This document shows positions 3,428-25,676 of a DNA stretch of 49,364 nucleotides, in pieces. This stretch comes from Acetobacteraceae bacterium (GTDB lineage: Bacteria > Pseudomonadota > Alphaproteobacteria > Acetobacterales > Acetobacteraceae): assembly GCA_019241425.1 (NCBI GenBank), contig JAFAXA010000202.1, forward strand, positions 1-49,364, written 5' to 3'. Position 1 is the stretch's first letter. The number at the start of each line of letters is the position of its first letter. The translations under genes were made by a program, and so were the position numbers. The notes under the pieces are model-generated. The model searched no databases, was not told the origin of the DNA, and was given only the letters and a program-made list of their open reading frames with translations.

Positions 3428-3859
3428 TCAGAGTTGCAGGATATTCGCCCCGATCTCGGGATCGACGTCACGCTGTAGCGCGATGGGGATCACGGTCACG
3501 CTGATCTCCATCGAGCCGCGTCCGACGGTAAGCGCGAGCAGGTGCCCGCCGACGGTCCGGAAGCTGGCATCGCCGGCCGTGCCATGGGCATGGATCGCGG
3601 GTTGACCCTCCTTCCAGGCCAAGGTGCCGGTGAGATTCGTCACCTCCAGCTCGTGGAAAACCTTCGGGCGGTATTCCTTCCGATCGAAATCGTAGAAGCC
3701 GAACGTCACTTCGCCCGCGAAGCCGAAACCGAAGATCGTGGCCGAAGGCACGGATTGCTCGCGCATCAGCGTCGCCAATTCTGCGAACACATCGTCGCCC
3801 CGGCGCAGAACTATGAGAAACCCGGTCGGCGTCGGAATGTAACGCCTCGGCTCGGACAT
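3428..3859 (-). CDS. PPC domain (DUF296) protein
   Basis: The 143-residue protein starts at ATG 3859-3857, chosen because GAGGAGG lies just upstream; a longer reading to 3889 lacks such a site. The translation MSEPRRYIPTPTGFLIVLRRGDD, ATIFGFGFAGEVTFGFYD and AIHAHGTAGD matches the PPC/DUF296 fold, a trimeric domain known in plants fused to AT-hooks and in bacteria as stand-alone proteins. The usual conserved Gly-Ala-Gly and the H-x-H near the C-terminal third (IHAHGT) are visible. The bacterial function is not established; nucleotide or metal binding has been discussed. It lies downstream of the PIG-L gene on the same strand with a 56 nt gap, so co-transcription is possible but not shown. Confidence 0.8.
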   Translation of the reverse strand: MSEPRRYIPTPTGFLIVLRRGDDVFAELATLMREQSVPSATIFGFGFAGEVTFGFYDFDRKEYRPKVFHELEVTNLTGTLAWKEGQPAIHAHGTAGDASFRTVGGHLLALTVGRGSMEISVTVIPIALQRDVDPEIGANILQL

Positions 3860-15220: not shown

Positions 15221-15245
15221 GCAACCCGAACGGGTGAAGAACGTT
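15221..15245 (+). promoter_or_regulatory. Candidate EcfG-type promoter before ino1 (one mismatch)
   Basis: GCAAC (15221-15225), 16 nt, CGTT (15242-15245) matches the alphaproteobacterial general-stress consensus GGAAC-N16/17-CGTT at eight of nine bases. Transcription would begin near 15252, just before the GGAGAGG ribosome site, giving a very short leader. Alone it is weak; it gains interest because the facing glycan operon has the exact consensus. Confidence 0.3.
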
Positions 15246-15268: not shown

Positions 15269-16356
<1,088 letters not shown>

Positions 16357-16357
<1 letters not shown>

Positions 16358-16965
16358 TGCCGGCAGGCGGCACCACCTTTCATCTGATCCGGCACGGCGA
16401 TTACGGCATGATCGGGCGTGCGCTCGCCGGGCGCGCGCCGGGCCACGCGCTGAATGAGAATGGCCGCGAGCAGGCCGAACGGATCGCCGCCATCCTGTGC
16501 GCCCGGCCGATCACGGCGATCGTTGCCGGGCCGCTCGAGCGTACGCGCGAAACGGCGGCACCGCTCGCAGCGCGGCTCCGCCTCGATGTGCAGGTTGATC
16601 CGGGGTGGGACGAAGTCGATTTCGGCGCCTGGACCGGCAAACCGTTTTCCGTTCTGCACGCCTTGCCCGAATGGCACGAGTACAACCGTTTTCGCGGCGC
16701 GTTCCCCATTCCGGGCGGCGAAACCGTGATCGCGGTTCAGGCGCGTGCCCTCGCCGCGATCCGCAGGCTCATCGACGCGCATGGGGAAGCCGAAGTCGCC
16801 GTATTCAGCCATGGCGATACGATCAAGACGGTGCTCGCGCATTATCTCGGGATGCCGCTCGACCTGCTGACGCGACTGGCAATCGACCCCGCATCGCGGA
16901 GCGAGCTGGTGATCTACGACGCCGACGCGCAGGCCCGAACGATCAACCTTCCGGCCGGCTTTTGA
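16357..16965 (+). CDS. Histidine phosphatase family protein, possible inositol monophosphate phosphatase
   Basis: The 202-residue protein has the phosphohistidine motif LIRHGDYGM at residues 10-18 (R12, H13), the second Arg region GPLERTRETA, Glu in WDEVDFGAWTG and the second His in VAVFSHGDTIKTVL. This is the broad phosphoglycerate-mutase-like superfamily, which removes phosphate from many small molecules. It starts with a GTG that overlaps the ino1 stop codon, so the two are translationally coupled. The simplest inference is that it dephosphorylates inositol 3-phosphate or a later cluster intermediate, replacing the usual SuhB-type inositol monophosphatase. That role is inferred from context only. 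Confidence 0.85.
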
Positions 16966-17093: not shown

Positions 17094-18044
17094 TCATGTT
17101 TTTAAGCGAGGCGAGCAATTCGTGCTTGTCCATTGCCCGCCCGGGGCCGATCCGGCCAGGCTGGCCGCGAGCCGTTGCAGCGGAAGCGACCAGTCGCCTT
17201 CCACGTCTTGGCGATAGAGCTGCACCGACGGATACCAGGGCGTATCATCCCGCCCCGCCATCCAACGCCAATCGGCGTCCCGCCGCAGCAGCAGCCGGAC
17301 CGGCTTGCCAAGCGTGCCGGCGAGATGCGCCACCATCGTGTCGACCGTAACGACCATCTCCGTCCCGGCAATCAGGCCGGCGGTCCTCAGCAGGTCGGTG
17401 CTGCTATCCCCCGGATTGAGAAAGCGGGGATCGCGCGCGTCCCGCGCTGCCGCCCCGCGTTGCAGGCTGACCAGCGCCCGGCCCGGTGGCATCGCGGCCA
17501 GCATCGGGGGGAGCGGCAGCGACCGGGCCCGGTCCCAATCGCCCGCCTCCCAGCACAGTCCGATCGCGCCCGTTCCGGCGTCCAGCGGCGCGACCGCCGG
17601 CAAAGCGAGGGGTGGTGGCAGCCGGTCCGGCTGGGGGCGGCAGATTTCCAGCAATTCCATGATCTCGACATCGCAGCCGGGCGACGGCGCCGGGGTCGGG
17701 CGAGTGACGTCGAACGGGATCAGCCGAACCCCGTCCAGGGCCGCGAGCAGGGGGAGCAGCGGCGCCGGCGCCTCCAGCGCGACCGACGCCGCGCGGCGCG
17801 CAATCGCCGGAACGAAGCGGGCGAATTGCAGCGTGTCGCCGAGGCCATGGTAGCAGCGGATCAGCACGTCGGCGCCGTCCAGCGGCCGGCCGTCCCAGAC
17901 CCAGCGCTGGTGATACGGCAGCAGCGGGTCGTCGCGGAAACGCGGGTCGCGGCCGGCGAGCACGCGGTCGCTGATCGCGTAGGCGGCGGCGAAGTCGCGG
18001 CGCCGCATCGCCGCCATCCATTCTGCCGCGGCATCAGCCGCCAT
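17094..18044 (-). CDS. GT9-like (heptosyltransferase-type) glycosyltransferase
   Basis: The 316-residue protein is the last gene of the eight-gene minus-strand operon and overlaps the preceding methyltransferase by 11 nt. After a short helical N-terminus comes the GT9-like motif VLIRCYHGLGDTLQFARFVPAIARRA, then AIGLCWEAGDWDRARSLPL and the nucleotide-sugar region GLIAGTEMVVTVDTMVAHLAGTLGKPVRLLL. This closely follows the C-terminal half of TPR-GT9 proteins common in Acetobacteraceae, with most of the TPR part absent. It should be a cytosolic GT-B enzyme. Donor and acceptor are unknown. The stop lies 128 nt from the end of the convergent ino1-phosphatase pair. Confidence 0.8.
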   Translation of the reverse strand: MAADAAAEWMAAMRRRDFAAAYAISDRVLAGRDPRFRDDPLLPYHQRWVWDGRPLDGADVLIRCYHGLGDTLQFARFVPAIARRAASVALEAPAPLLPLLAALDGVRLIPFDVTRPTPAPSPGCDVEIMELLEICRPQPDRLPPPLALPAVAPLDAGTGAIGLCWEAGDWDRARSLPLPPMLAAMPPGRALVSLQRGAAARDARDPRFLNPGDSSTDLLRTAGLIAGTEMVVTVDTMVAHLAGTLGKPVRLLLRRDADWRWMAGRDDTPWYPSVQLYRQDVEGDWSLPLQRLAASLAGSAPGGQWTSTNCSPRLKT

Positions 18045-18900
18045 CGCGCGGGTCCGGTTTCCGCCACAGGAAAGCCCGCCCGTCCCACAGCGCGAACGGG
18101 GTTGCGCCCGCGACCGCGAGGGTCAGGCGGTGGGCGGCGGCCCAGGCACGGGCGTCCGCCAGATCTTCGGCGGGGCCGCGATAGGACAGGTTCAGGATGG
18201 TGATCGCGCCGCCGGGCCGCACGATGCGGGCGAAATCGGCCATGTGCCGCTGGGCGCAGTCCCGTCCGGCCCCGAACAGGTACGGAAAACTGTCGACGGC
18301 GAGGATAAGGGCGAAGCGCGCATCCGGCTGGTCGGCGAGGTCGGCGCCGGCGGTTGTCGCAAAGCGCAGGTTGGGCAGGGCGGCGCGGCGGCGCGCGGTC
18401 CCGATCATCGCGGGCGAAAGATCGAGGCCGAGCACCGACCGGACGTGCGGCGCCACCGCCGCCGCAATGCGGCCGATCCCGCAGCCGAAATCGAGCATGT
18501 CGGTGTCGGGGCGGAGCACGCCCAACCCGTCGAGCCAACAGACGATCTCGCCCGTCGCTTGCCGGAGAAGATCGCCGTCGCCGAGCGAATAGGCGGCGAC
18601 GCTCGCTTCGGGAGAGGCGGCGACGGCGCGATCGAACGCCGTTCTGACCGCCGCAATGGCCGCCGCCGGATCGGCATCGGCCACGCCGTGATGCAGGCCG
18701 GACCCGTCGAGCAGCGCTTTCAGCCGGCGCAGGCCGTCGCCGCGCGCGCCCGCGATCCGCGCGAGTGCGGCGTTGCCCGCGCTCAGGATGTGCGCCGCGA
18801 GCGTCTCCGGGTCGTGGCCGTTCAGGATCAGCCGGGCGAGCGCGACCTCGGCGGATACGCGGCCCGCCGCGTGCAGGCGGATCGGATCGTCCGCCCCCAT
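18034..18900 (-). CDS. Class I SAM-dependent methyltransferase
   Basis: The 288-residue protein has a helical domain of about 130 residues followed by a Rossmann methyltransferase domain. Motif I is DMLDFGCGIGRIAAAVAPH (134-152), the acidic loop is VLGLDLSPAMIGTARRRA, then FALILAVDSFPYLF and the post-motif region FARIVRPGGAITILNLSYRG. It matches the general Methyltransf_11/25 pattern; the substrate is not predictable, but within this operon a sugar or cyclitol hydroxyl is likely. The start overlaps the acyltransferase stop by one base (ATGA), and the end overlaps the GT9-like gene by 11 nt, indicating coupled translation. Confidence 0.85.
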   Translation of the reverse strand: MGADDPIRLHAAGRVSAEVALARLILNGHDPETLAAHILSAGNAALARIAGARGDGLRRLKALLDGSGLHHGVADADPAAAIAAVRTAFDRAVAASPEASVAAYSLGDGDLLRQATGEIVCWLDGLGVLRPDTDMLDFGCGIGRIAAAVAPHVRSVLGLDLSPAMIGTARRRAALPNLRFATTAGADLADQPDARFALILAVDSFPYLFGAGRDCAQRHMADFARIVRPGGAITILNLSYRGPAEDLADARAWAAAHRLTLAVAGATPFALWDGRAFLWRKPDPRDGG

Positions 18901-19919
18901 CAGCCTCGGCCCGCCGGCAGCAGCCGCACCGTCATGCTCGGCTGGTCGAGGGCGCCCCAGGCATATTTGTACGCCTCGCCCCCGCGCAGGAAGTGGAACT
19001 CACGGCGACCCTCCCGGATCGCATCCTCGATCGCGGCGGCGAACATCAGGGTTCCGGGGCTTTCGTACGCGAAGGCCGGATCGAAGCCGCCGAGATAGGC
19101 AAACACCCGGCCGGCGCCCGCCAGCAGCAGATAGAACACCGCGGCGAGCTTGCCGCCGATGCGCAGCGCTTGCATCCGCAACATCTCCGCCGCCAGCAAG
19201 CGGGGGGTCGCGTCGCGGTGAAAGGCGTGCACCAGCGGATCGGTGAGCACGCCCGCGCTTCCTCTGCCCTGCCATCGCAAGCCGTGCAGCCGCACCAGTT
19301 CCGGCAACATGGCGCCGAGCGTGTCGGGCGTCGCGGTTTCGATCGCCGATCCGCCCCCTCGCTCCGCCCGATGCCGGGCCATGCTGATCTTCCGGCGCAT
19401 GGAGGCCGGGACCACCGAACGCAAATCCCGGGCGCCGGACGGGAGCGCGAGCACCGGACAGGTTTCCCCGTCCTCCCGCCACACGCTCCAGCCGGGCGGC
19501 GCCCGCACGTCCCGGAGCGCGCTGCCGGGCGGCAGGTCGATCAGATCGCAACGCGCAAGCGCGCCCGGAGGATCCACGGCGAGCGCGGCCGCGAGCAGCC
19601 GGTCGGCGGCACCGTCCGGCGCGTCGGGGGCGAGGAGGGCGTCGCAATAGTCGGACAGCCCGGCGCCGAGCGGTAGCAGCTTGCCCCCGCCGGGCTCGTC
19701 CAGCCGATAGAGCGGCAGCGCGCCGAGCATCCGCTCTCCGCCCCGCAACACCGCGACGCGCGGGCGGCCGGTGCCGAAGGCGCGCCACCATGGCAGCAGC
19801 CATTCCGGCGACTGAAACGGCGACGCTTCCGGCACGCCCCGCCACAGTTCGGACCAGCACGGTTGCAGGGCGGCGAGGTCGCGATCGTTCGTAACCACAT
19901 TGCAGCCGACGTCGCTCAT
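18900..19919 (-). CDS. GNAT-fold acyltransferase, CelD/FemAB-like (BioF2-like)
   Basis: The 339-residue protein follows the CelD/BcsL pattern: an N-terminal half with WSELWRGVPEASPFQSPEWL and a C-terminal GNAT half with ASMRRKISMARHRAE, LHGLRWQGRG, LRIGGKLAAVFYLLLAGAGRVFAYLGGFDPAFAYESPGTL and FHFLRGGEAYKYAWG. Such double-GNAT proteins transfer acyl or aminoacyl groups in exopolysaccharide and cellulose clusters. No signal peptide is present. It overlaps the upstream GT4 gene by 4 nt and the downstream methyltransferase by 1 nt. The likely job is N- or O-acylation of the glycan made by the operon. Confidence 0.8.
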   Translation of the reverse strand: MSDVGCNVVTNDRDLAALQPCWSELWRGVPEASPFQSPEWLLPWWRAFGTGRPRVAVLRGGERMLGALPLYRLDEPGGGKLLPLGAGLSDYCDALLAPDAPDGAADRLLAAALAVDPPGALARCDLIDLPPGSALRDVRAPPGWSVWREDGETCPVLALPSGARDLRSVVPASMRRKISMARHRAERGGGSAIETATPDTLGAMLPELVRLHGLRWQGRGSAGVLTDPLVHAFHRDATPRLLAAEMLRMQALRIGGKLAAVFYLLLAGAGRVFAYLGGFDPAFAYESPGTLMFAAAIEDAIREGRREFHFLRGGEAYKYAWGALDQPSMTVRLLPAGRG

Positions 19920-20965
19920 GCGGCGGCGAGCCGGCGATACAGCGCAAGGTAGCGGCGGGTCATCGTCGCGCGGTCAAACCGGGCGCGTGCCGTCGCCCGG
20001 CAGGTCTCCGGGTCGATCGTTCCGGCGCGCCGCACGGCGTCCGCCATCGCGTCCGGGCCGTCGACGACGAAGCCCGTGCGCCCGTGCTCCACCGTCTCGG
20101 GCAGCGCGCCGGCGGCAAACGCGATCGCGGGCGTCCCGGCGGCGGCCGCTTCCATCGCCACCAGCGAACTCGTCTCCGCCGCCAGGCTCGGGATCAGCAC
20201 GCACCGGGCCGCCGCCAGCAAGCGCCGCTTGCGCGCGTGGCCGACCGGGCCGAGGAAACGCCGCCGGGCATCGAGCAGCGGACGCACGCGGGTCGCGAAA
20301 TAGTCCTGATGCGCGGGGTAGGGAAATACGGCGCCGCCGATCAGTAACGGCAGCCCCGCCGCGTGGGCGATCTCCAGCGCGATATGCTGGCCCTTCTCCG
20401 GGCAGATGCGGCCGAGGGTGAGCAGGAAGGAACGCCGCGCATGGCGGGCCGCCGCCAGATCCTCGACCGGCACGCCGTTCGGGATCGGCGGCAAAAGGCC
20501 GGGACCGGCCGGCGCGGTGCGATGCTGCGCTTCCGAAACGCAATGCAGAAAGAACCGCTCCCGCCCGGGCCGCAGCGCCTCCGGCGGATACCACGCGACC
20601 GGCAGGTGCAGCGTCGCCAGCGCAGGCGGACCATGCGGCGGCAGATAGGCGCCGAAATCGACCCCGTGCAGATGCACGAGGTCGACCCGCTTCCGTTCCA
20701 GCACGCGCCCGATCGCTTCCCGCATCCGCTGATGAACGGCCGCCCGCGCCGCGTCGTCGAGCCTCACCCCGGCCGGCGGCGTTTCGATGGCGATGTGCGT
20801 CCCGCGAATGGAGGAACCGCCGCACGCAACGACCAGCGAGCGGTGGCCGGCGTCGGCCAGCGCGCCGTCGAGCGCGCTCACCACCTGCTCGGCGCCGCCC
20901 ACCGCATCCGGCCCCACCGTCGCGAACGGAAACGCAACAAGGAGGACGGTGAGCCGGTCTTGCAC
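19916..20965 (-). CDS. Glycosyltransferase family 4 protein
   Basis: The 349-residue GT-B enzyme starts at GTG 20965-20963. The N-terminal acceptor domain has FPFATVGPDAVGGAEQVVSALD and VDLVHLHGVDFGAYLP. The C-terminal donor domain has FLLTLGRICPEKGQHIALEIA, the Glu-rich donor region IPSLAAETSSLVAMEAAAAGTPAIAFAAGALPE, then TGFVVDGPDAMADAV. GT4 enzymes are retaining and include MshA, which uses inositol 3-phosphate as acceptor, and many exopolysaccharide enzymes; which applies here cannot be told. It is separated by 11 nt from the upstream hydrolase-like gene and overlaps the acyltransferase by 4 nt. Confidence 0.92.
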   Translation of the reverse strand: MQDRLTVLLVAFPFATVGPDAVGGAEQVVSALDGALADAGHRSLVVACGGSSIRGTHIAIETPPAGVRLDDAARAAVHQRMREAIGRVLERKRVDLVHLHGVDFGAYLPPHGPPALATLHLPVAWYPPEALRPGRERFFLHCVSEAQHRTAPAGPGLLPPIPNGVPVEDLAAARHARRSFLLTLGRICPEKGQHIALEIAHAAGLPLLIGGAVFPYPAHQDYFATRVRPLLDARRRFLGPVGHARKRRLLAAARCVLIPSLAAETSSLVAMEAAAAGTPAIAFAAGALPETVEHGRTGFVVDGPDAMADAVRRAGTIDPETCRATARARFDRATMTRRYLALYRRLAAA

Positions 20966-20976
20966 CTCGCCGGCGT

Positions 20977-21882
20977 TCAGATCGCGGTCGCCGGTCCCGG
21001 CGCGTACCGGCGGATCATGCGCGCGCAGAACTCGGCGAAAATTTCCGGCTCCCGCGGCGGCGCGGTGTAGTGCGCCCAGGTGCCCTGATCCTCCGGCGTG
21101 AAGCAGAAGGTGACGGTGACCCGGAACGCCTCCAGGGCGCGCATCTGGCGATCAAACCACCGTTCCGCGTCCGGGCGGTAGAAATCGGCCCAGCTCAGGC
21201 CGGTGCGCAGATAGGTGACGCCGAGATCGCGCATCCGCTTCACGGCGTCGTCCAGCCGGTGATCCTCGTAGTGGAACCATTGGCAAAGGCCGATGCCGGG
21301 CGTGAATTCCGGGAAGATGCGCGCGGCGCGCTTCGGTGCGCCGCCTTCGTCGAATAGTCCCATATGGAAATGCCGGTAATAGGACGAGCCTTCCGCCTCC
21401 TTGTGCCGCGTCGTCGCGGGCCAGGCGGCGGGCAGATCGTAGAGACTGTACCAGTGGATGCGCGGCACGCGCCCGGTCAGCAATTCGGCGCTGCGCCGCA
21501 GGCCCCATTCCTGCACCTCCTCGGCGCCGAAACTGGACACCCCGACCTCCGACACCCAGACCGGCAGATCGGTCGTGCGCTCGATTGTCGCGATCTTCGC
21601 CGGCCACTCGTCGATCATCCAGTGATTCCAGTCGAGCGGAAAGCCGTGCACGGCAACCGCGTCGACCGCGTCGAGGCCGCCCTGCGACGCGAGCAGCCGC
21701 ACGAAATCGGGGTCGATCGGCGACATGCCCCCGAGCACGCGCGGCAATCCCGGCGCTTCGGCGGCGATCGCCTCGCCGGCCAGCCGCGTCATGCGCGAAA
21801 ATACCGCCCAGCCCGGATCGTTCTCGAAATCCCAATGCGACTTGTTGTTCGGCTCGTTCCAGATCATCGCCGCCTCGATCAT
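20977..21882 (-). CDS. Clan GH-A glycoside-hydrolase-like protein, apparently circularly permuted
   Basis: The 301-residue protein starts MIEAAMIWNEPNNKSHW at ATG 21882. WNEP with E10 is the acid/base motif normally found at strand 4 of GH-A TIM barrels (GH39, GH5), some 130-160 residues into the chain. Strands 5-8 follow in order: LPRVLGGMSPID, DAVAVHGFPLDW, LPVWVSEVGVSSFG (nucleophile E112) and RIHWYSLYDLP. The C-terminal 105 residues then look like strands 1-3: IGLCQWFHYEDHRLDDAV, LGVTYLRTGLSWADFY, FRVTVTFCFTPEDQG, ending in FAEFCARMIRRYAP, which normally leads into WNEP. Both catalytic Glu are kept. Similar proteins are labelled beta-xylosidase. It overlaps the upstream methyltransferase by 4 nt. 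No signal peptide, so it acts in the cytosol. Confidence 0.8.
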   Translation of the reverse strand: MIEAAMIWNEPNNKSHWDFENDPGWAVFSRMTRLAGEAIAAEAPGLPRVLGGMSPIDPDFVRLLASQGGLDAVDAVAVHGFPLDWNHWMIDEWPAKIATIERTTDLPVWVSEVGVSSFGAEEVQEWGLRRSAELLTGRVPRIHWYSLYDLPAAWPATTRHKEAEGSSYYRHFHMGLFDEGGAPKRAARIFPEFTPGIGLCQWFHYEDHRLDDAVKRMRDLGVTYLRTGLSWADFYRPDAERWFDRQMRALEAFRVTVTFCFTPEDQGTWAHYTAPPREPEIFAEFCARMIRRYAPGPATAI

Positions 21883-22664
21883 CGGGCGGCGTCTCCGGCG
21901 GGGCCGCGCGCCGGATAGACGGCGCCGCGCTCGCCGAACCCGGCGGCCGCCCGTTCCGTGCGCCGGCAAACGAACACCTCCTCCTCCGGCTGCGCTTCGA
22001 TGCTGAATCCGGCGCTCCGCAGCATGGCGGCCGAACAGGCGGTGTTCGGCACCCACCAATTCGTCGGATCATGCGCGTAGTTCTGTTCGACGAAATGCAG
22101 CTTCGGATAGCCGGGCTCGTCGAACACCGCGGTTTCGGAAAACTCATAGTCGGGCTTGAGCCCCAGCACGGCCTGGCTGCCGCGCTGCATCGACTGGAAG
22201 ACAAGGCGATCGCCGGCGACATGCTCGTAAATCAGGTCGAGCGCGAGCAATGGATGCCGAAGGTGGTACAAAACGCCGATGAACAGCACGAGATCGAAGC
22301 GTTCGCCGAGCGCCGCCACGTCGTAGACGGAGAGCTTGCGGTATTCGATCTCGATCCCCTCGATCTCGGCGGCGAAGCGCGCCTGCGCCAGATAGTCGTC
22401 ATCGAAATCGATGCCGACCACCCGCGCCGCCCCGCGCCGTTTCAATTGCATCGAGTGGAACCCGGCATTGCAGCCGATATCGAGAACCGTGAGGCCGGTG
22501 AGATCGGCCGGAATGTGGTCGGCGAACCGCACCCATTTGATCCGGGGATAGTCGCCGAGGAAATGATCGGGGGCGGTGCGAACCCCCCGCAAATCCATGT
22601 TGTGAAACCAGGGGCCGAGTGCCCGTACCCGCTCGCGAATGGCCTGCTCCGTCCAGCCCGTCAT
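21879..22664 (-). CDS. CmoB-like SAM methyltransferase (TIGR04290-type)
   Basis: The 261-residue protein has an N-terminal segment WFHNMDLRGVRTAPDHFLGDYP that resembles the CmoB/DUF1698 family. Motif I follows in VLDIGCNAGFHSMQLKRRG (60-78), then VVGIDFDDDYLAQARFAAE, FDLVLFIGVLYHLRHPLLAL and NTACSAAMLRSAGFSIEAQPE. I recall a methyltransferase family (TIGR04290, Rta_06860 type) defined in glycan-type clusters beside such hydrolase-like genes; this assignment is from memory. The substrate is more likely a carbohydrate than tRNA given the operon. It starts 16 nt after the nucleotidyltransferase and overlaps the hydrolase-like gene by 4 nt. Confidence 0.85.
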   Translation of the reverse strand: MTGWTEQAIRERVRALGPWFHNMDLRGVRTAPDHFLGDYPRIKWVRFADHIPADLTGLTVLDIGCNAGFHSMQLKRRGAARVVGIDFDDDYLAQARFAAEIEGIEIEYRKLSVYDVAALGERFDLVLFIGVLYHLRHPLLALDLIYEHVAGDRLVFQSMQRGSQAVLGLKPDYEFSETAVFDEPGYPKLHFVEQNYAHDPTNWWVPNTACSAAMLRSAGFSIEAQPEEEVFVCRRTERAAAGFGERGAVYPARGPAGDAAR

Positions 22665-22680
22665 TCGCGCACCGTCCCGG

Positions 22681-23424
22681 TCATAATCGCTGCTCTCCCT
22701 CGGCCGCGCCCAGCAGGCCGATCGCTTCCCGATAGCCGTTCAGCGTGCCCACGTCGACGTAGCTTGTGCCGCCCCGGACGGCATAAACCGCGCCGCCGTT
22801 TTCGATAAAGGCGTTCACCAGCGTGCCGACATACTGATCCTGCCGGTCGCGTCTCAACCACAAAGTGTGCAGCGCAAGCAAAGTGTGCGCAGGTAGTTTG
22901 AAGGCGCCCCAAATCCAGGACGACCGTCGTTCGGGGGATTTGACGTCGATCCGCTGCACGCGCCCCTCTTCGCCGGTGATGACGGCGTCGAACAACTCGG
23001 GCCGTTCCACCGGGAACAGCAGAAACGACAGCCGGTCGTCCGGCAGGGCCGCCAACGCATCCTCCGGAAACCAGATCGTGTCCGGCAGGCCGACCAGCAC
23101 CGGCTCATCGGGCCGCAGCAGCGGCAGAGCGCGGAAAATCGCGTCGCACAGCCCCTGCGCCTGGTTCTGCACCACATAGGCGAGATGGGCGCCCGCGACG
23201 GCGCCACCGTAATAATGCAGAATGTCGGCCTTGCCGGGCGAAATGACGAAGCAGATGCGGTCGGCGCCGCCGCGCACCATGCGCTCCACCAAATATTCGC
23301 TCACCGCCCGCGGGCGCTCGATGCCGGTCGGGTCGCGCCGGCTGCCGACCGGCAGCAACTCCTTGGAGAAGGCGAGCGGCTGAATGCGCGTGCCGTTGCC
23401 GGCCGCCGGTATGATCCCCCACAT
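22681..23424 (-). CDS. Sugar-1-phosphate nucleotidyltransferase
   Basis: The 247-residue protein starts MWGIIPAAGNGTRIQPLAFS; I chose ATG 23424 because the nucleotide loop G-x-G-T-R must sit at the N-terminus. The signature AAGNGTRIQPLAFSKELLPV contains R13 and K21. Further elements are YVVQNQAQGLCDAIFRA, VLVGLPDTIW (metal-binding Asp), WIWGAFKLPAH and SYVDVGTLNGYREA. This is the RmlA/GlmU-type NTP_transferase fold that makes NDP-sugars from sugar 1-phosphates. Nucleotide and sugar are not predictable. It probably supplies the activated donor for the three glycosyltransferases of the operon. It starts 5 nt after the CgeB-like gene ends. Confidence 0.9.
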   Translation of the reverse strand: MWGIIPAAGNGTRIQPLAFSKELLPVGSRRDPTGIERPRAVSEYLVERMVRGGADRICFVISPGKADILHYYGGAVAGAHLAYVVQNQAQGLCDAIFRALPLLRPDEPVLVGLPDTIWFPEDALAALPDDRLSFLLFPVERPELFDAVITGEEGRVQRIDVKSPERRSSWIWGAFKLPAHTLLALHTLWLRRDRQDQYVGTLVNAFIENGGAVYAVRGGTSYVDVGTLNGYREAIGLLGAAEGEQRL

Positions 23425-23429
23425 GCCGC

Positions 23430-24518
23430 TCAAGCCGCCGGCGCCGTGCCGGCCGCGGCCCATTCGAAGGCGGCGATCATCTCGCGGGCGCGCTGGGTCG
23501 CCGTGTGTTCAGCCAGCACCCGCGCCCGCGCCCGGGCGGCGATCGCGTCGCGCTCGGCGTCGGACAGCGCCATCGCCGCCAGCGTGTCCTCCGTGCGCGA
23601 GGCGATCATGATTTCGCGTCCCGGCTCGAAGAACGCATCGAGGCCCTCCCACGGATCGCTGATGATGGGCGCGCCACAGGCGGCGGCCTCGAACAGCCGG
23701 CCGGACGGGCACCAGCCCATGCGCGCCATCGCGTCACGCGTGACGTTCAGCGTCCATCGCGAGGAGCTGTAGAACACCGGATGCGCGGCGGCCGGCACGT
23801 GCCGGACGAACCAGATGTTCTCCGTCCAGGGAAAATCGGGCGGGTATTGCGCGCCGCCAAGGACAAACCGTTGATGGGGCAGCCGCCGGGCCGCGTCGAC
23901 GAACAGGCGCTCCAGCCCCGCCTGGCGATCGGCCGCATAGGTGCCGAGATAGGACAGCGCCGCGCCGTAATGCGTGTCGGGCGTCGCCGGGTAATGCTGC
24001 GCCGGATCGACCGAGCCGTACAACGGAACCGCCCGCCGGGCGCCGAGCCGGTCCCGCAACGCATCCAACGCCTTGCCGCCCGTGTAGCTCAGGACGAGAT
24101 CGAACGGCGCAAGCCCGTCCGCGCCGATATAGCTGAGCTGCTCTCCGGCCGCGACCCGCGCCAGGGTGATCGGCGTATCGAGGTCGTAGAAGCAGCGCAG
24201 CTTCACGCGGCTATCCAGCAACAGGCGGGTCGCCGCAATGCCATCCGGACAGTACGAGGTCACCAGCCCGACATCCGCTTCCCGCAATGAGTCCCGCGCG
24301 TGCCCGAGGGCATCGGCGAACTCGCGATAAAGGATAAGCGTGCCGCCGTCCGGCAAAGCGTGCAGGTCGCGATGCCCGGCGTAGTACGACGTGTCGCGCT
24401 CATAAAAAACGACGCTGTGGCCATCGAGAAGCAGCGCCGCAATCAGCGCCCGCCACAGCGCGCCATGGCCGTTGCCCCAGGTGGAGCTGACGGACAGGCC
24501 GAAGATCACCACCCGCAT
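23430..24518 (-). CDS. CgeB-like glycosyltransferase, first gene of the glycan operon
   Basis: The 362-residue protein starts MRVVIFGLSVSSTWGNGHGALWRAL at ATG 24518; the longer reading to 24578 adds an Arg-rich stretch and would cross the candidate promoter. The N-terminal GT-B domain has GHSVVFYERDTSYYAGHRDL. The C-terminal domain has the CgeB signature RMGWCPSGRLFEAAACGAPIISDPWEGLDAFFEPGREI. The CgeB family was named from a Bacillus spore-coat maturation protein and belongs to the GT4-like fold. It heads the operon of eight genes running to 17094. An exact EcfG-type promoter consensus lies 50-74 nt upstream. Confidence 0.88.
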   Translation of the reverse strand: MRVVIFGLSVSSTWGNGHGALWRALIAALLLDGHSVVFYERDTSYYAGHRDLHALPDGGTLILYREFADALGHARDSLREADVGLVTSYCPDGIAATRLLLDSRVKLRCFYDLDTPITLARVAAGEQLSYIGADGLAPFDLVLSYTGGKALDALRDRLGARRAVPLYGSVDPAQHYPATPDTHYGAALSYLGTYAADRQAGLERLFVDAARRLPHQRFVLGGAQYPPDFPWTENIWFVRHVPAAAHPVFYSSSRWTLNVTRDAMARMGWCPSGRLFEAAACGAPIISDPWEGLDAFFEPGREIMIASRTEDTLAAMALSDAERDAIAARARARVLAEHTATQRAREMIAAFEWAAAGTAPAA

Positions 24519-24567
24519 AGGAAGCCCAAGCCGAGGCGTTCTCGCATCCGTGCTCCGTGGTCTCGTG

Positions 24568-24592
24568 AACGACCGCAAGGTAGCGCGGTTCC
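24568..24592 (-). promoter_or_regulatory. Candidate EcfG general-stress promoter of the glycan operon (exact consensus)
   Basis: On the minus strand GGAAC (24592-24588) and CGTT (24571-24568) are separated by exactly 16 nt, matching the alphaproteobacterial EcfG/SigT consensus GGAAC-N16/17-CGTT at all nine bases. It faces the first gene of the operon, with a predicted leader of about 40 nt. A nine-base match at a fixed spacing is expected by chance about once in 4^9 (262,144) positions in random sequence. Confidence 0.5.
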
Positions 24593-24711
24593 CGCCGGGA
24601 AACGCGACAGTCCTCTGCGCGGCGCGAATTTAAGAACCGGCTGGTTTCACCTCCCGGCTCCGCGCCGCAGCAATGCCCGGCAAATTTGGGCAGTCCCGGC
24701 GGACGCATCCT

Positions 24712-24736
24712 GGGACGGCTCGCCGCGTTCAACGTT
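24712..24736 (+). promoter_or_regulatory. Candidate EcfG-type promoter before the small secreted protein (one mismatch)
   Basis: GGGAC (24712-24716), 16 nt, CGTT (24733-24736) differs from GGAAC-N16-CGTT at one base. Transcription would start near 24743, just before GGAAGGAG and the ATG at 24762. It is divergent from the exact-consensus site of the glycan operon, so both sides of this intergenic region could respond to the same sigma factor. Confidence 0.35.
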
Positions 24737-24761
24737 TGTGCAATCGGAAGGAGTTCGACCC

Positions 24762-25031
24762 ATGAAGTCTGTTATCACGCTCGCCTGCGCCGGCCTGCTC
24801 GCCGGCGGCTTGGCCGCCAGCCCCGCGCACGCGGCGGGCTGCCTGTCCGGAGGCGCGGTCGGCGGACTCGCAGGGCACGCGGTCGGCCATGGCGTCGCGG
24901 GCGCAGCGGCCGGATGCGCGATCGGGCATCACGAAGGCAAGAAGCAGGCCAAGCAACAGGAGGCGACCCCCGCCTCGTCCTCCAACACAGCCGCCCCGGC
25001 CAACAACCAGGCCCCGACCCAGAACCAGTAG
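24762..25031 (+). CDS. Small secreted glycine-zipper-like protein
   Basis: The 89-residue protein starts at ATG 24762 with GGAAGGAG 8 nt upstream. Residues 1-24 are a signal peptide (MKSVITLACAGLLAGGLAAS, cleavage after AHA). Then comes a Gly/Ala-rich segment with small-residue spacing, GGAVGGLAGHAVGHGVAGAAAG, typical of glycine-zipper proteins that insert in or associate with the envelope. A Lys/Gln/Asn-rich tail ends in NQAPTQNQ. Two Cys flank the zipper. Similar small proteins in alphaproteobacteria are often stress-induced, which fits the EcfG-like promoter and the divergent glycan operon. Function unknown. Confidence 0.8.
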   Translation: MKSVITLACAGLLAGGLAASPAHAAGCLSGGAVGGLAGHAVGHGVAGAAAGCAIGHHEGKKQAKQQEATPASSSNTAAPANNQAPTQNQ

Positions 25032-25106
25032 GCGGCCGGCCCCGGCCTGGACGCCACGTGCGCCGCCGCCCATATCCACACGGTGTTCACGGGAGGACCG
25101 TCGGAA

Positions 25107-25676
25107 ATGAGCGGCGCGCAGCTTCAAGCAGGCGAGGAAGTCGCCGTTCTCGGCGGCGGTTGCTTCTGGTGCCTGGAGGCGGTGTTCAAGGAGTTGCGCG
25201 GGGTGCGCCGGGTGATGTCGGGCTACGCCGGCGGCCACGTCGCAGATCCGAGCTACAAGCAGGTTTGCGGCGGCCGCACCGGCCACGCCGAGGTGGTGCA
25301 GGTGACATTCAGGCCCGACGAACTGTCCTACGCCGACCTGCTCCGGGTGTTCTTCACCATCCATGACCCGACGACCCGCGACCGCCAGGGCAACGATGTG
25401 GGGCCGCAATACCGCTCGATCGTCCTCACCACCTCGGACGAGCAGCGGCAGACGGCCGAGGCCGTCAAGCAGGAGCTGACGGCTGAGGAGGTCTGGCCCG
25501 CGCCCATCGTCTCGGAAATCGTTCCTTTGCAGGTGTTCTACCCGGCCGAGCCGGAGCACCACGATTACTTTGCGCGCAACCCGTACGCGGGCTACTGTCA
25601 GGTTGTGGTGGCACCGAAGGTGCGCAAATTTCGCAAAAGTTTCGCGGACCGGCTGAAGGCGGGCGTCTCCGCCTGA
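25107..25676 (+). CDS. msrA: Peptide-methionine (S)-S-oxide reductase
   Basis: The 189-residue enzyme reduces methionine-S-sulfoxide in oxidised proteins using thioredoxin. The start is ATG 25107, preceded by GGGAGGA at 25091-25097. The catalytic motif GGGCFWCLEAVF gives C19 as sulfoxide-attacking Cys and C22 nearby. Other MsrA signatures are VMSGYAGGHVADPSYKQVCGGRTGHAEVV, FFTIHDPTTRDRQGNDVGPQYRS and EHHDYFARNP. A resolving Cys may be the one in GYCQVV. No signal peptide, so it is cytosolic. It lies 75 nt after the small secreted protein and before the pentose-phosphate operon; NADPH from zwf would feed the thioredoxin system it depends on. Confidence 0.97.
   Translation: MSGAQLQAGEEVAVLGGGCFWCLEAVFKELRGVRRVMSGYAGGHVADPSYKQVCGGRTGHAEVVQVTFRPDELSYADLLRVFFTIHDPTTRDRQGNDVGPQYRSIVLTTSDEQRQTAEAVKQELTAEEVWPAPIVSEIVPLQVFYPAEPEHHDYFARNPYAGYCQVVVAPKVRKFRKSFADRLKAGVSA

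Follow-up and report, generated by a model that had tools for sequence, protein, structure and literature searches.

The region between a glycan operon and the gene of a small secreted protein in this Acetobacteraceae contig raises the question of whether the two are transcribed from back-to-back promoters for one sigma factor, and hence whether an envelope protein and a glycan pathway would answer to the same stress. A preliminary description of the DNA had proposed as much, naming the general-stress sigma factor EcfG. We examined the sites in the window (the whole stretch of 49,364 nt that was analysed), in the rest of the genome and upstream of homologous genes in other genera of the family. 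The reading that we favour, with reasonable confidence, is that a general-stress sigma factor would start transcription in both directions from this intergenic region and would also drive a third site in front of an inositol-3-phosphate synthase gene.

Divergent sites and the genes they face

The intergenic region and its flanking genes comprise the following features, those of the operon being identified by gene call and family:

17097-18017, minus strand: GT9-like gene
18037-18900, minus strand: methyltransferase
18903-19919, minus strand: acetyltransferase
19919-20965, minus strand: GT4
20980-21882, minus strand: hydrolase-like protein
21882-22664, minus strand: TIGR04290 methyltransferase
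22684-23463, minus strand: nucleotidyltransferase
23433-24518, minus strand: glycosyltransferase (GT), first gene of the operon
24568-24592, minus strand: candidate EcfG-type promoter of the glycan operon (-35 GGAAC at 24588-24592, N16, -10 CGTT at 24568-24571)
24712-24736, plus strand: candidate EcfG-type promoter of P0001 (-35 GGGAC, one mismatch, at 24712-24716, N16, -10 CGTT at 24733-24736)
24762-25031, plus strand: P0001, a small protein of 89 aa with a signal-like N-terminus and a glycine-rich GxxxG stretch; no family assigned in Pfam or NCBIfam
25083-25676, plus strand: msrA, methionine sulfoxide reductase (PF01625, 206.7 bits)

The minus-strand site, GGAACCGCGCTACCTTGCGGTCGTT (24592..24568), is an exact GGAAC-N16-CGTT facing the eight-gene operon (17097..24518), as had been claimed. 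GGAAC is the -35 box of EcfG (ECF15) promoters, and the site stands 49 nt from ATG 24518 of the first operon gene, within the approximately 100 nt usual for such promoters. No other exact GGAAC-N15..18-CGTT occurs in the window, for which chance predicts 1.6, and a weight matrix built from the sites of P0001 homologues in other genomes places the minus site first among 98,680 window positions. This site is very probably an EcfG-type promoter.

The plus-strand site was likewise present as described, GGGAC-N16-CGTT with one mismatch, and 25 nt separate its CGTT from the start of P0001 (ATG 24762). At both sites the -10 CGTT stands at N16, within the N16-N17 spacing of EcfG (ECF15) promoters. The claim that both match the EcfG consensus is borne out exactly by the minus site, but the plus site departs from it in the -35 box, where GGGAC breaks the AAC triplet of the EcfG (ECF15) box. 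The same matrix, from which the present genome was excluded, gives the plus site rank 37 of the 98,680 positions. Boxes that deviate from AAC are also found in P0001 promoters of relatives (GGAGC in L055 and L188, GGATC in L197), and the plus site is probably an EcfG-type promoter.

A crude scan of 24480..25120 gave no sigma-70-like promoter, and 24300..25300 had no Rfam match. The msrA gene begins 51 nt after P0001 on the same strand and is possibly co-transcribed with it; the adjacency was not found in 20 msrA loci of relatives. The named genomes nearest to this msrA indicate a place for the organism in Acetobacteraceae. A conserved P0001-msrA pair was considered and rejected, as two weak matches among these loci (L096, L130) had no P0001-like open frame on reading.

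This kind of element is already known. In Sphingopyxis granuli TFA, the motif of the EcfG1/EcfG2 regulon is GGAAC-N16-CGTT, the second commonest -35 box is GCAAC, AAC is kept in 76 of 79 promoters with one AAC mismatch in 3/79, and the targets include csbD, catalases, egtB/egtD and envelope genes (PMC7083833). The present genome shares this motif and has sites at similar target classes: exact N16 sites precede CsbD, Mn-catalase and DUF3072 genes, and an exact N17 site precedes an EgtB-like gene, so read from its FGE-sulfatase and DinB_2 domains. Exact sites also stand before genes that are not obviously stress-related (an amino-acid kinase gene, a LysR fragment). Unlike the S. granuli promoters, which were studied by RNA-seq and in vitro transcription, the present sites are known from sequence alone, and unlike the nearly invariant AAC of that species, the plus site has GAC. 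In Sphingomonas melonis Fr1, the EcfG regulon motif is GGAAC-N17-20-GTT within 100 nt of starts, and EcfG-dependent genes there encode a small secreted protein as well as topoisomerase IB; several glycosyltransferase genes in a row, #3505-3509, also depend on EcfG (PMC6599016). Motif type and target classes are shared with the present sites, the likeness of #3505-3509 being one of gene class; the #3505 promoter is treated in that study as a putative indirect target. Use of the element for the present cluster in Acetobacteraceae was not found in the literature searched, nor was a paper there on EcfG, PhyR and Acetobacteraceae together.

Motif background and upstream regions in other genera

The background frequency of the motif, which the preliminary description had left to a scan of the whole genome, is 24 exact matches to GGAAC-N16-CGTT (G000, 3.58 Mb, 350 contigs), against 50 for the reversed pattern, 20 for N17 and 36 for N20. 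The exact motif is thus not enriched over these controls and a match by itself proves little, which is why genome-wide counting was dropped as proof. Equally good matches inside coding regions, which the preliminary description had accepted as evidence against its proposal, are present: with gene calls from a purpose-made gene finder trained on 49 long ORFs, 17 of the 24 exact matches lie inside predicted genes, so that the motif alone is insufficient. Position is slightly more telling. Five of the intergenic matches are followed by a gene start at 28-49 nt; two further matches (L007, L012) lie 43 and 9 nt before a start and overlap a gene call on the opposite strand. For the N20 control, of which 30/36 matches were classified, two were intergenic and had a start no more than 300 nt away (24 and 205 nt).

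Of 299 family genomes, 114 have a homologue of P0001, and 88 loci gave 86 distinct upstream regions in which matches with at most one mismatch were counted over 100 nt, spacer by spacer from N8 to N26. On the forward strand N16 was found in 22 of the 86 regions, N17 in five and every other spacer in 0-3, while on the reverse strand N16 was found in four and other spacers in 0-4. With the present genome's own region removed, N16 remains in 21 of 85 regions; shuffled sequences gave a mean of 1.07, and none of 300 shuffles reached 21. These N16 sites extend over 15 of 44 genera, our own included, and 19 of the 23 P0001-homologue sites listed stand 25-35 nt before the start, a range into which the 25 nt of the plus site fits.

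Orthologues of GT (E below 1e-100) were present in 32 of 396 family genomes, and 30 of these 32 matches had loci, which were examined. A first pass over GT homologues, which took in paralogues and operon-internal genes, revealed no pattern; later counts used closer orthologues and the first genes of operons. In the 250 nt before the first gene, with at most one mismatch, N16 was found in 9 of 30 loci, N15 in five (three exact), N17 in four and other spacers in 0-3. Within 120 nt, N16 was present in 7 of 26 loci against a shuffle mean of 0.34, and 0/300 shuffles reached 7, this test omitting the own locus and L317, L320 and L326, which are without upstream sequence. Exact N17 sites lie 43 and 53 nt before GT in L310 and L312, and no site is present at six GT loci of genus g4. 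The P0001 and GT counts derive from related sequences rather than independent samples, and against a stricter control, made of 139 regions upstream of other genes in these loci and itself peaking at N16 (12), the excess has p 0.001 for P0001 and p 0.015 for GT. Three of the 12 N16 control regions resemble target genes with another start, which makes this control somewhat too strict.

No other locus was found in which P0001 is paired with the GT operon; other neighbours flank the GT orthologues. The gene preceding GT in L321, L322, L324 and L328 resembles topoisomerase IB (confirmed by Pfam for L321). In genus g17 (L336 10247-10412, L347 11157-11322) GT is divergent from a different small gene and both carry GGAAC-N16-GGTT, which makes a back-to-back pair there with a different partner. 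The proposed tie between envelope protein and glycan pathway is supported, in that the footprints in other genera back each site for its own family; the lack of this pairing elsewhere and the off-consensus plus -35 box limit that support. We infer that one sigma factor, and with it one stress response, is likely to be shared by both sites. As a separate observation, three genomes of genus g18 (L026/L038, L305, L307) keep an exact GGAAC-N15-CGTT, its spacer one base short, before the GT operon.

General-stress regulators and competing explanations

A PhyR/EcfG system was sought in the genome, since its absence would have spoken against the proposal, and a general-stress locus was found (L010 6395-10404, contig C329). 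In this locus phyR is divergent from two tandem ECF sigma genes, which sit between phyR and a nepR-like gene; a HisKA_2 kinase gene follows, and glgE adjoins phyR. PhyR exceeds its cut-off (NF006623, 277.6 bits against 240) and has the sigma-like (PF22029) and receiver (PF00072) domains. The NepR-like protein scores below its cut-off (PF18557, 23.8 bits against 25.7), with position and size right, and the kinase matches PF07568 (85.6 bits) and, below the cut-off of 750, the PhyK model (195.9 bits). No EcfG-specific model was above cut-off for the two ECF sigma factors, the identity of which thus rests on context. The nepR-like gene has GGACC-N16-CGTT 21 nt upstream; no site was found upstream of the genome's own phyR, and canonical phyR and nepR loci of relatives bear EcfG-type sites.

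PhyR was also sought in 66 genomes with P0001 loci, out of the 114 with a P0001 homologue. Of the genomes with PhyR, 19 of 53 had an N16 site in the P0001 promoter, and of those lacking it 2 of 14 (Fisher p 0.11), and with N17 added in 21 of 53 and 3 of 14 (p 0.17); the 14 genomes without PhyR had no NepR match either. N16 or N17 sites stand before P0001 homologues in L227 (G074), L203 (G222) and L234 (G122), where PhyR and NepR were not detected, and in L227 a second, adjoining gene also has an exact N16 site. Matches to NepR in the family are of two kinds, full-length ones and short ones that span about model positions 6-29; in G018 a strong match and a weak one occur together.

Under control by the general-stress system, stress would cause the HisKA_2-type kinase to phosphorylate PhyR, phosphorylated PhyR would draw NepR off the EcfG-type sigma factor, and RNA polymerase with the freed sigma factor would transcribe the glycan operon from the minus site, P0001 from the plus site and the inositol-3-phosphate synthase gene from its own. 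The analysis shows the sites themselves, the regulator genes and the spacer-specific conservation of sites upstream of both families in other genera. One of the two ECF sigma factors would be the acting one, and transcription from the sites, its induction by stress and a joint physiological role are predicted from these elements.

Alternatively, one or both matches may have arisen by chance in a GC-rich genome, with other promoters transcribing the genes, as would fit the 24 exact matches against 50 for the reversed pattern, the 17 of 24 that are intragenic and the six g4 GT loci without a site. Chance would, however, have to account for the N16-specific peaks before homologues of other genera and for the top rank of the minus site by an independent matrix, and we regard it as quite improbable. 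The sites could instead be promoters read, outside PhyR/NepR control, by a different ECF sigma factor whose -35 box is similar; sites before P0001 homologues in three genomes without detectable PhyR/NepR (G074, G122, G222) and the non-significant co-occurrence of motif and PhyR point in this direction. We consider this unlikely because the motif precedes known classes of general-stress genes here and phyR/nepR genes of relatives, and a GGACC form of it lies before the genome's own nepR-like gene. A last reading keeps the minus site as the one working promoter; the plus site would have decayed and P0001 would have left the regulon in this genome. The GGGAC box and the rank of 37 would agree with such decay, but boxes off AAC recur in the P0001 family (L055, L188, L197) and a distance of 25 nt agrees with it, which leaves this reading rather doubtful.

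An inositol-3-phosphate synthase gene and the wider cluster

The third site and its genes lie on the far side of the glycan operon:

15221-15245, plus strand: third EcfG-type site (GCAAC-N16-CGTT), 23 nt upstream of the TTG at which the inositol-3-phosphate synthase gene starts
15269-16357, plus strand: inositol-3-phosphate synthase, INO1 (PF01658; TIGR03450 532.7 bits, below the cut-off of 638)
16357-16965, plus strand: histidine-phosphatase superfamily gene adjoining INO1 (PF00300, 154.6 bits)

The preliminary description had seen no comparable pair before other genes of the window, and a second back-to-back pair was indeed not found, but the single site before INO1, which ranks third in the window by the P0001-homologue matrix, is to be added. 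INO1 has an N16 site of its own in four of six other loci as well, which indicates that the minus/plus pair belongs to a larger pattern.

The operon order GT, nucleotidyltransferase, TIGR04290 methyltransferase, hydrolase-like protein, GT4, acetyltransferase and methyltransferase is kept, across genera, in most of 20 longer stretches. Several of these stretches have a GT9-like gene and an inositol-phosphate synthase/phosphatase pair nearby, and a PIG-L deacetylase occurs in several (confirmed by Pfam in one, recognised by eye in the others). We put forward, as a tentative possibility of rather low probability, that the GT operon and the INO1 unit together make up a single conserved cluster of Acetobacteraceae. 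It would produce a stress glycan or metabolite containing inositol and would be turned on as a whole by an EcfG-type sigma factor through several separate promoters. The cluster would then comprise the synthase, the phosphatase, several glycosyltransferases, the nucleotidyltransferase, methyltransferases, the hydrolase-like protein, the acetyltransferase and often the PIG-L deacetylase, and its product, if so, would be uncharacterised. A mycothiol-like pathway is not claimed for it, because no cysteine ligase was found among the window genes scanned.

For the family, our reading predicts a general stress regulon in Acetobacteraceae, the outputs of which would include the conserved glycan cluster and a widespread family of small secreted proteins. 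With these as outputs, remodelling of the envelope under stress could be tested in culturable family members. The hydrolase-like protein (20980-21882) matches no Pfam family above cut-off and has a weak likeness to the glycosyl hydrolase core and PslG; across genera it is 69-83% identical, exceeding its operon neighbours in most loci.
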